From Sphingomonas yantingensis (lineage in GTDB: Bacteria > Pseudomonadota > Alphaproteobacteria > Sphingomonadales > Sphingomonadaceae), in assembly GCF_014199325.1 (NCBI RefSeq), contig NZ_JACIJJ010000001.1, forward strand, positions 682,001 through 746,000: a stretch of DNA of 64,000 nt. Reading direction: 5' to 3'. This document shows, piece after piece, positions 34,456 through 40,153 of the stretch. The position numbers and the translations under genes are program-made. Position 1 is the first letter of the stretch. Every line of letters starts with the position of its first letter. A model generated the notes under the pieces. The model was not told the DNA's origin. It did not search any database and saw nothing but the letters and a program-made list of their open reading frames with translations.

Positions 34456-34926
34456 ATGGCACGTCGTCGTCGTCCCGAAAAGCGGGAAATCCTGCCTGAT
34501 CCCAAGTTCGGAGATCAGGTCCTGTCGAAGTTCATGAACAGCGTCATGCTGGACGGCAAGAAGGCCGTTGCCGAGGGCATCGTCTACACCGCGCTCGAGA
34601 CCGTCGAGAGCCGTGCGAAGCGCGATCCGATCGGCGTGTTCCACGACGCGCTCAACAACATCAAGCCGGGCATCGAGGTCCGCAGCCGCCGCGTCGGCGG
34701 TGCGACCTATCAGGTTCCCGTCGAGGTGCGTCCCGAGCGTGCGCAGGCGCTGGCGATCCGCTGGCTCATCACCTCGGCCCGCAACCGCAGCGAGAACACC
34801 ATGTCGGCGCGCCTGTCGGGTGAGCTGCTCGACGCCGCCAACAATCGCGGCAACGCGGTCAAGAAGCGCGAGGACACGCATCGCATGGCCGAAGCGAACC
34901 GCGCCTTCTCGCACTATCGCTGGTAA
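34456..34926 (+). CDS. rpsG: 30S ribosomal protein S7
   Basis: S7 organises the 3' domain of 16S rRNA and contacts E-site tRNA. The product is 156 residues, starting [19 protein letters not shown], with the [10 protein letters not shown] and [24 protein letters not shown] motifs and the C-terminal [21 protein letters not shown]. An AGAAGGAAAT ribosome site precedes it. A very strong hairpin starts 11 bases after its stop, before fusA. Confidence 0.98.
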
Positions 34927-34936
34927 TGACTATATA

Positions 34937-34962
34937 GGGGGCGAGGCTTCGGCCTTGCCCCC
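34937..34962 (+). terminator. Strong TTCG hairpin after rpsG
   Basis: GGGGGCGAGGC pairs with GCCTTGCCCCC (11 bp, one wobble) around a TTCG tetraloop. There is no T-run after it, so it may stabilise or partly terminate rather than end transcription fully. Confidence 0.5.
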
Positions 34963-34967
34963 ATTCC

Positions 34968-35046
34968 CCGTTCGTCCCGAGCGCAGCCGCGGGACCGCCA
35001 CGAGCCGATGCTCGCGGTTCCTTGCGACTTCGGTCGCGACGAACGG
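34968..35046. repeat. Cruciform-like structured element between rpsG and fusA
   Basis: The outer arms CCGTTCGTC and GACGAACGG (9 bp) enclose two further hairpins: GGGACCG..CGAGC pairing with GCTCGCGGTTCC (34991-35021), and GCGAC-TTCG-GTCGC (35024-35037). The result is a three-way junction. The start resembles dispersed intergenic repeats known in sphingomonads, from memory. Confidence 0.55.
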
Positions 35047-35096
35047 CACCGATTTTCAATTCGCCCCCGCCGCCATTCGGCACCAGGAGTAAGATC

Positions 35097-37190
<2,094 letters not shown>

Positions 37191-37202
37191 GCCCAAGGCG
37201 CA

Positions 37203-37363
37203 CGGAGGCAGGCTCGCCTGTCTCCGAGACGCCGAACGGCCGGCCGGTGCCGGGCACAGCCCGGCGTCCGACGACAGCGGATTTACTCCGCTGTCGGCCC
37301 GACCGGGGGCTGGCGCTCGATGAAAACACCCGTTAAGGGGCCGCGTTCGCGTGGCGCCCTTAC
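37203..37363 (+). promoter_or_regulatory. Hairpin cluster between fusA and tuf
   Basis: Three hairpins lie in the 206-base gap: 37203-37226 (10 bp, CTCG loop), 37272-37296 (perfect 10-bp stem CGACAGCGGA, loop of 5) and 37334-37363 (ends in TAAGGG/CCCTTA with an inner CGCG-TTCG-CGTG part). No T-run follows any. Their role is unknown. Confidence 0.5.
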
Positions 37364-37396
37364 CGGCCGCGAAATTGATCCAGAAGGTAGGAAATC

Positions 37397-38590
<1,194 letters not shown>

Positions 38591-38644
38591 TATAGGCGCG
38601 AGCCTTGCCGGGGCGGGGTGACTCGCTCCCGGACTTCAGGACAG

Positions 38645-38682
38645 CGGCCGGACCGAGCAATCGGTTCGGCCGTTGCCTTTTT
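38645..38682 (+). terminator. Intrinsic terminator after tuf
   Basis: CGGCCGGACCGA pairs with TCGGTTCGGCCG (12 bp, one wobble) around a GCAA loop, followed by TTGCC and then TTTTT. It separates the str unit from the S10 unit. Confidence 0.75.
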
Positions 38683-38780: not shown

Positions 38781-39089
38781 ATGGACAACAACATCCGTAT
38801 TCGCCTGAAGGCGTTCGACCATCGCGTGCTCGATCAGGCCGCTGGCGACATCGCCGACACCGCGCGCCGCACCGGCGCCCTGATCCGTGGCCCCATCCCG
38901 CTGCCCACGCACATCGACAAGTTCACCGTCAACCGCGGCCCGCACATCGACAAGAAGTCGCGCGAGCAGTTCGAGACGCGCACCTACAAGCGCCTTCTCG
39001 ACATCGTGCAGCCGACCGCGCAGACGGTCGATGCGCTGATGAAGCTGGACCTTGCCGCCGGCGTCGACGTCGAGATCAAGCTGGCCTGA
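38781..39089 (+). CDS. rpsJ: 30S ribosomal protein S10
   Basis: S10 is a 30S head protein that also forms the NusB-S10 antitermination complex. The product is 102 residues with [16 protein letters not shown] at the start, [29 protein letters not shown] in the middle and [12 protein letters not shown] at the end, all typical. Its promoter was not clear. A small GCCCG-GTCA-CGGGC hairpin lies just upstream of the ribosome site. rplC follows only after a 308-base structured gap, an unusual separation. Confidence 0.98.
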
Positions 39090-39397
39090 TCGGCCGCTTC
39101 GCGCCTTCGGGTCTGCGGTTGACGATCTCACCTGCATTCCCTAAAGGCGCTGCTTCCGCAGGAGATGATTCTCCGGCGTGTTGAGAATCGCTCCCGGAGC
39201 GGTGCTCACGAAAGCAGGGATACCGGCCAGTCACCGACTGGCGCCTGAGTCCCCGTCTTTCGCTTTTAACCGAAGCGAAAACCTGGCCCTGACGGGGGCA
39301 CTTGAAATTGGGCTGGCCCTTCGGCGGTGACGCTGGGGGGTCTTTTCGTTGGCACGCTCCCCCCGGGGAGCCTCTGTTGTGGGAAGGAATACGCATC
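39090..39397 (+). promoter_or_regulatory. 308-base structured gap between rpsJ and rplC
   Basis: No gene is seen. Four perfect hairpins are: GATTCTC/GAGAATC (39167-39189), GCCAGTC-ACC-GACTGGC (39226-39242, extendable by GGGA/TCCC), TTTCGCTT/AAGCGAAA (39258-39280), and GCTCCCC/GGGGAGC (39356-39371) just before the rplC ribosome site GGAAGG. This is a plausible regulatory leader for the rplC-to-rpmD genes. I saw no known leader class. Confidence 0.5.
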
Positions 39398-40153
39398 ATG
39401 CGCACTGGCGTGATCGCGAAGAAGATGGGGATGACCCGCCTGTTCCAGGACGACGGCCGGCACGTGCCGGTGACCGTTCTGGCGCTCGAGGGCGTCCAGG
39501 TGGTTGCACAGCGCACCGCCGACCGTGACGGCTATGTCGCCGTCCAGATCGGTGCCGGCACCGCCAAGGCCAAGAACGTCGCCAAGCCGCAGCGCGGCCA
39601 CTTCGGCAAGGCCGAAGTCGAGCTGAAGGCGCAGCTTTGCGAGTTCCGCGTCGCTGACGATGCGATGCTCGACGTGGGTGCCGAGATCGGCGCCGACCAC
39701 TTCGTCGCCGGCCAGATGGTCGACGTGTCGGGCCGCACGCAGGGCAAGGGTTTCGCCGGCGCCATGAAGCGCTGGGGTTTCGGGGGCCTTCGCGCCACGC
39801 ACGGCGTGTCGCTGAGCCACCGTTCGCATGGTTCGACGGGTAACCGCCAGGATCCGGGCAAGGTCTTCAAGAACAAGAAGATGGCCGGTCACATGGGCGA
39901 CCGCGAGCGCACGCAGCAGAATCTCGAGATCGTGTCGACCGACGTCGAGCGCGGCCTTCTGTTCGTGAAGGGCTCGGTGCCCGGGCACAAGGGTTCGTGG
40001 CTGGTCGTCAAGGACGCGGTCAAGGTCGCGCGCCACAAGGATGCGCCGTACCCGGCCGGCCTGCGCCAGGTCGCAAACAACAACGACGCCGCCGCCGACA
40101 CGCCCGCCACGGGTGCTGACGACGCTGCGGCGACCGACGGCCAGGAGGGCTGA
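39398..40153 (+). CDS. rplC: 50S ribosomal protein L3 with acidic C-terminal tail
   Basis: L3 reaches toward the peptidyl transferase centre. The product is 251 residues, starting [27 protein letters not shown] and [33 protein letters not shown] are the core L3 loop. The last 27 residues are an alanine, aspartate and threonine-rich tail ([20 protein letters not shown] and onward) beyond the usual end, seen in some alphaproteobacterial L3 proteins. ATG 39398 is chosen because the upstream in-frame codons belong to the leader. Confidence 0.97.

Follow-up and report, generated by a model that had tools for sequence, protein, structure and literature searches.

We found that the gap between rpsJ and rplC of Sphingomonas yantingensis contains a conserved, pseudoknotted RNA, and it is fairly likely that this RNA is a cis-acting ribosomal protein leader, found so far in one family only, the Sphingomonadaceae and close kin as judged from its named members. 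The core of the RNA (39209-39397, + strand) covers the last 189 nt of the gap, up to the rplC start codon. What distinguishes the leader is strong sequence evidence, a spread over a large family of Alphaproteobacteria, a pseudoknot and an unusual place. Most of what is known about leaders of ribosomal protein genes concerns E. coli, B. subtilis and related bacteria. The position of the present one would free S10, which is also NusE (PMC10931766, in a figure legend), from the control of its neighbours, and the leader would probably allow the cell to turn down many ribosomal protein genes as one large block, with rpsJ left outside this control.

All positions refer to the window, that is, the whole 64,000-nt stretch of DNA analysed. 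Upstream of and outside the leader lies rpsJ (S10; 38781-39089, + strand), a 102-aa open reading frame with a tblastn partner in relatives. The first gene 3' of the leader is rplC (L3; 39398-40153, + strand), and it is followed by more ribosomal protein frames, which we take from the usual gene order to be rplD, rplW, rplB and so on. The two genes leave a gap of 308 nt (39090-39397), as a first-pass annotation of the sequence had reported. It had also held that rpsJ and rplC are usually close, and in other families of the order we indeed measured 4-27 nt in 19 of 20 loci, the last one (L126) being unmeasurable; together with the tuf-rpsJ spacing there, which is short as well (see below), this leaves too little space for such an RNA. 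A longer rplC frame that starts upstream at an in-frame TTG (39302, 283 aa) was rejected, because the ATG and its ribosome site are conserved and the preceding stretch is RNA with many insertions and deletions.

The gap had been described as structured, and its predicted fold agrees with this. The RNA from 39085 to 39405 folds at -150.5 kcal/mol, compared to -128.8 kcal/mol (sd 5.2) for 100 dinucleotide shuffles, none of which was as low (z -4.17). Four perfect local hairpins with arms of 7-8 bp, already pointed out by the annotation, are present. The first (39167-39173/39183-39189) falls 5' of the conserved RNA; the other three are found at 39226-39232/39236-39242, 39258-39265/39273-39280 and 39356-39362/39365-39371. 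The fourth was said to adjoin the rplC ribosome site; it ends 9 nt before GGGAAGGAA, which contains the rplC Shine-Dalgarno sequence, a purine-rich ribosome binding site (39381-39389, + strand) recognized by its sequence. The most telling pairings, named P1, P3 and P5 below, are not local hairpins.

For the comparison with relatives, loci with rplC were taken from named genomes (80 loci) and from whole genomes, where 112 of 120 had a match and 30 were taken as loci. The rpsJ-rplC gap was 62-387 nt long in the 99 measured among 112 sequences, and only L042 (62 nt) fell below 150 nt; the 112 include the window and its re-fetched copies, 11 that lie on the other strand and were left unmeasured, and L039 and L105, which are without rpsJ. 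Alignment A1 comprises 53 sequences, chosen among the 90 distinct gaps with a length of 100 nt or more and leaving out L042, L019 and cores at least 85% alike. In these 53 sequences, the order of elements in the 5' part is GGGAUACC, the P2 hairpin, GCGUCCCCCGUC, the P4 hairpin, CAGCCC, GGACGGGG, CGCAU and GGGCUG, and in the 3' part an optional insert, CACGC, the P7 hairpin, GCCUCUGU, the ribosome site and GAUC AUG. The residues AUACC lie outside the helices and are invariant in all 53 rows. The GAUC directly before the rplC start codon (A1 columns 327-330) is nearly invariant as well, which is more than a spacer needs; the window has CAUC here.

A covariance model, R1, was built with the helices P2, P3, P4 and P7, while P1 and P5 were left out. 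In the window it matches 39209-39400 with 88.9 bits, and this is the sole match in the source genome. R1 gave one match each in 94 of the 95 sources provided, the miss being L042; the match set included L101, L104 and L108, which lie on the other strand and are unmeasured for the gap, and copies were left out. The resulting alignment A2 covers 94 loci, of which 93 are distinct. Of its 3560 base-pair cells, 94.7% are paired, compared to 77.9% in shuffles and 34-53% with the partners slid, and 28 of the 39 pairs show changes on both sides. The covariation score was 0.480 versus 0.175. Double changes were seen in six of six pairs of both P2 (39226-39242, + strand) and P4 (39258-39280, + strand), and in five of the nine pairs of P3, whose two helices have 91.1% and 93.5% of their cells paired. 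These counts for P2, P3, P4 and P7 lean towards structure, because A2 was fitted to those very helices.

The helices outside the model are free of this leaning. The 5' strand of P5, UGGCCC (39284-39289, + strand), pairs with GGGCUG at 39310-39315; 99.5% of its cells are paired, with A-U to G-C as well as G-C to A-U changes. P3 is formed by a 5' strand at 39246-39257 (+ strand), of which the outer part UGAGU (39246-39250) pairs with 39300-39304 and the inner part (39251-39257) with 39291-39297. Since the 5' strand of P5 lies inside P3 and its 3' strand outside, the two helices cross and form a pseudoknot. P1 pairs GGGA (39217-39220, + strand) with UCCC (39250-39253) and covaries, with GAGA/UCUC and GGAA/UUCC in other sequences; the two inner variable pairs hold without exception, and the outermost pair fails in 10 sequences. 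The 5' strand of P3 overlaps the 3' strand of P1 and uses the same C residues, which puts P1 in competition with the long form of P3 and may amount to a two-state switch. Taken together, P1 and P5 pair in 98.6% of the A2 cells and show 35 double-change cells versus 5.8 in shuffles. The number of further pair types counts against them, with 8 versus 8.1 in shuffles, because the changes are few in kind.

Both helices were also followed in a second set of loci, comprising the 30 best family matches of R1 together with L165 and L216. This was no random draw, and with two duplicates (L216 equals L021, L156 equals L034) it leaves 30 new, mostly best-scoring sequences. P1 and P5 pair in 99.1% of the cells here, with 8 double-change cells versus 1.1 in shuffles and 5 pair types versus 6.8. 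All 32 matches lie between rpsJ and rplC, with the last three model bases on the rplC start codon. The covariation search across relatives that the first-pass annotation had proposed thus returned strongly covarying stems, also in sequences outside the model; the lack of such stems, which the annotation had named as a refutation, was not observed. From comparison of sequences the RNA family is well established; a ligand and repression are what we infer from it.

With regard to its distribution, R1 was present in 207 of 249 sampled genomes of the family, belonging to 78 of 96 genera, with one match per genome among the genomes listed. In a sample of the order (196 genomes), 109 genomes had a row at E <= 1; 106 of these reached E 6e-13 or better and all lie in the family, and the marginal rows (E 0.05, 0.94 and 0.97) include two outside it. 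Across the class, R1 was found in 4 of 289 genomes, all family members; the other 285 gave no R1 match, and the 20 of them that were listed all belong to other families. In large samples such as these, weak matches can be lost through the filters.

Members of the family with no or a weak R1 match were studied separately. Our sample comprised the 20 listed of 42 R1-negative genomes and 2 weak ones; 4 of these 22 were without an rplC match, which left 18 loci with rpsJ-rplC gaps of 37-230 nt. The gap of one, L166, is identical to that of L042. In all 18, GCCUCUG stands before the rplC ribosome site, mostly on the 3' side of a hairpin that starts with CANGC, and it occurs twice in tandem in L169 and L173. 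A script found a P7-type hairpin in 15 of the 15 minimal loci given to it (L166, L172, L182 and L183 were not given). In the window, GCCUCUG (39370-39376) is part of the P7 hairpin, which has an internal loop (39351-39378, + strand). Being kept beside the ribosome site in every one of these loci, the motif points to a possible binding or initiation site.

In alignment A3 of 45 full and minimal sequences, 96.6% of the P7 cells are paired, with 60 double-change cells versus 19.4 in shuffles; counted as pairs with double changes, the 5 seen do not exceed the 4.3 in shuffles. The source of A3 was a set of 88 P7 segments, from which 13 of 15 minimal segments and roughly half of the remaining ones (every second) were taken and seven were removed by hand. 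Below the internal loop, two pairs are formed in 97.3% of the cells and show 16 double-change cells versus 2.1. It counts against the base of P7 that its pair types are no more numerous than in shuffles, and the C-G to U-A change there may be a single event, since it is seen in Sphingobium-type loci. On a quick tree of S10 and L3 (110 rows, 36 open forks, midpoint root) 3 changes are required to explain the minimal form, which may be either an ancestral core or the result of reduction. A minimal form of one hairpin with GCCUCUG offers a small target for finding the ligand.

A model of P7 alone, R2, was searched in 36 chosen genomes at E <= 1. Its 11 strong rows (E <= 1.6e-5) come exclusively from genomes of the family, and by their coordinates each of them falls on the leader before rplC. 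This search is not fully sensitive, because the rplC sites of G171, G191 and G219 went undetected, although the hairpins of these genomes (L179, L174 and L173, respectively) are in the R2 alignment itself. Use of P7 as a site elsewhere was considered, and nine loci from among the weaker R2 rows were read and taken as chance. The matches L196 and L199-L202 overlap long open frames, and L198 is found where such a frame begins. L197 corresponds to a terminator-like hairpin downstream of an rpsD-like frame, and L203 precedes an aldehyde dehydrogenase-like frame (both gene names by eye). The ninth, L204 in G077, falls within a long CRISPR-like array whose repeat contains GGGGATGGGCC.

Two kinds of platform are found between P5 and the start codon. 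Between P5 and P7, 22 of the 94 loci, including the window, carry a U-run with CGUUGG or a near form behind it; among the members of this type are Sphingobium, a part of Sphingomonas that includes the window, and L046. The window carries a terminator-like hairpin of 12 bp (39315-39342) followed by UUUU (39343-39346) and CGUUGG (39315-39352 in all, + strand), and the stretch 39310-39352 folds at -23.1 kcal/mol. This type looks like an attenuator. By a perfect-stem rule in a script, a stem of 9-12 bp stands right before the U-run in 7 of the 22 loci, the window being the one with 12 pairs, and none was found in 15. As the U-run is absent in 72 of 94 loci and the stem is present in only 7 of 22, termination is not the common mechanism. 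A GRAUGG-like pattern within the P7 hairpin occurs in 61 of the 72 loci without the U-run versus 2 of the 22 with it. On the S10 and L3 tree, the U-run type requires at least 7 changes. We read these patterns as one RNA domain with two possible ways of acting on rplC, and the two platform types could serve as a test of how a regulator changes its mechanism in evolution.

The CGUUGG after the U-run, or a near form of it, is kept between distant lineages (39343-39352 in the window together with 21 other loci). A pairing partner for it was looked for and none was found. Pairing of the 5' strand of P5 with GUUGG after the U-tract is perfect in Sphingobium by eye; it is not kept in the type of the window and was rejected.

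The first-pass annotation had proposed an autoregulatory leader of the genes after rpsJ. The leader part is supported by covariation and fits the position right before rplC in the 94 loci and in the 32 of the second set, and the autoregulatory part is our inference from position, structure and the general logic of ribosomal protein operons. According to our proposal, one of the proteins encoded by the operon, most probably L4 or else L3, would bind the leader when free. The bound leader would deny ribosomes access to rplC and, through coupling, to the downstream genes as well. In the U-tract type, to which the window belongs, the bound form may also or instead stop transcription before rplC. 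Lying upstream, rpsJ would escape, and S10/NusE would stay apart from the feedback. Some family members do without the pseudoknot, which is a counterpoint to this reading. The fuller picture is put forward tentatively, at a little less than an even chance: a new family of ribosomal protein leaders whose single pseudoknot receptor domain became coupled, depending on the lineage, to either of two expression platforms, a transcription terminator or just a hairpin beside the ribosome site, and which, by lying behind the first gene, keeps S10/NusE out of the feedback on the remaining S10 operon.

As to the ligand, a rough apportioning makes L4 the best guess, if short of even, and L3 clearly less probable; another protein of the operon or no ligand at all would be quite improbable, to the same degree. 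L4 comes first by analogy, because it controls this block in E. coli by termination and translation (PMC10931766) and because PMC7247131 assigned L4 to an archaeal rplC leader on similar grounds. L3 comes second because rplC is the next gene. Mimicry of rRNA was looked for with exact motifs against the 23S rRNA of the genome and the rest of the rRNA contig, and only matches of up to 7 bases were seen; the 23S rRNA contains CCUCUG two times, which hardly exceeds chance. Such short matches were rejected as evidence for any ligand, be it L4 or L3.

A different explanation would be a constitutive mRNA element without ligand, which sets the ratio of S10 to the other proteins through processing, partial termination or protection from nucleases. 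The stable GC-rich structure, the separation of rpsJ from the rest and the U-run type in a subset of loci would all suit it. However, the conserved unpaired residues and the pseudoknot exceed what a plain stabilizer needs, and the U-run is not common to the family, so that we regard this explanation as unlikely. Next in order is a riboswitch-like leader that senses something other than a ribosomal protein of the operon, be it a metabolite or ion, a translation factor or some general growth signal. An elaborate pseudoknot, invariant residues outside the helices and two kinds of platform are features as in riboswitches. Yet the RNA always precedes rplC in the loci examined, with one match per listed genome, it is confined to one family in our samples, and only the portion adjoining the ribosome site persists in its minimal versions; we consider a riboswitch-like role quite improbable.

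There is a very small chance that the structure is the end of the rpsJ transcript or a separate small RNA with rplC served by its own promoter, since the terminator-like hairpin before rplC and the promoter-like site in 14 of 90 gaps would fit, but conservation runs through P7 to the start codon and a promoter upstream of the RNA would still make it a leader. The site in question, TTGACG-N17-TAAAGG (39119-39147, + strand), lies within the gap of the window upstream of the conserved RNA. The 14 gaps with such sites at 17-nt spacing compare to 0.19 expected and at most 2 in 200 shuffle rounds, with the proviso that the 90 gaps come from related loci and are hence not independent. A stricter sigma-70 scan found no promoter at the rpsJ-rplC gap of the window. 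In L034, the gap of 154 nt has no room for the promoter-like site, so that the RNA must be read through from rpsJ there.

The preferred reading, a ribosomal protein leader, places the RNA among systems that differ from it in position or lineage. In PMC10931766, uL4 is described as controlling the E. coli S10 operon via its leader by attenuation and translation. That leader resembles ours in the gene block, which is largely the same, in being long and structured, and, for the type of the window, in a terminator-like hairpin ahead of the ribosome site. In contrast, it belongs to another lineage and sits before rpsJ while the Sphingomonas RNA sits after it, which counts against both the likeness and our reading, and the pseudoknot domain and GCCUCUG hairpin set ours apart by description. 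Within the Alphaproteobacteria, the L2 r-leader, rated as borderline in PMC7247131, is likewise a candidate r-leader inside the S10 gene block; it lies before rplB instead of rplC. The window has no room for it, because the putative rplW (end 41092) and rplB (start 41095) are 2 nt apart. The S10 r-leader of Firmicutes/Clostridia and the rpsJ motif of Peptostreptococcaceae (PMC7247131 and PMC11109978) are leaders of the rpsJ block too, likened here by description; they lie before rpsJ and in other lineages.

Intercistronic sites have been described in E. coli, where those of S7 (between the S12 and S7 genes) and S8 (between the L24 and L5 genes) lie inside the str and spc operons (PMC2704228); by description they are alike in placement, in other operons and another lineage. 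In B. subtilis, the L10(L12)4 and L20 leaders act by attenuation (PMC10931766), and a choice between a terminator and other folds driven by a ribosomal protein is what they would share with our RNA, in other operons.

The annotation had seen no earlier description of the arrangement. In line with this, no regulatory RNA or site between rpsJ and rplC was found in the consulted portion of the open-access literature, a scope outside of which subscription journals and supplements lie. The word rplC has a single occurrence in the main texts of PMC7247131, PMC11109978, PMC5770649 and PMC2864571, namely in the archaeal entry of Table 1 in PMC7247131. At the curated cut-offs of Rfam 15 there was no match in the 64-kb window; near the gap, four matches were seen, all far below cut-off. 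One of these, ctRNA_p42d (39311-39353, 19.5 bits with a cut-off of 50), covers the terminator-like hairpin and was taken as chance. Because there is neither an Rfam match nor a published description found, the RNA is, as far as can be told, a new RNA family of a known kind.

Upstream, a terminator-like hairpin of 15 pairs followed by TTTTT (38642-38675, + strand) sits between tuf and rpsJ, and because of it rpsJ probably has its own transcript start and probably heads the S10 transcript. A lenient script run without shuffle control found such hairpins in 51 of 72 measured loci, while 8 loci had no tuf in reach. The tuf-rpsJ spacing among these 72 loci is 901-1287 nt in L005, L020, L053 and L075, which looks like insertion; eight further loci have 339-681 nt and the remainder 96-272 nt. 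Elsewhere in the order, outside the family, the spacing is short, at roughly 30-70 nt for the 18 loci with an identified tuf.

Some minor observations concern the loci themselves. On the minus strand of the window, long open frames of up to 760 aa (34914-37196, 37283-38365 and 39266-40036) lie opposite fusA, tuf and rplC; they look like shadows of GC-rich coding sequence. The rplC match is in three pieces in G048 (C1, 1881769-1882481) and contains one in-frame stop in G141 and G217 (L168 and L177), each due to either sequencing error or real damage. Finally, a record titled Bacillus sp. 2B10 (L031) holds a Sphingomonas-like S10 operon with the same RNA and an L3 that is 83% identical, and it is probably mislabelled or contaminated.
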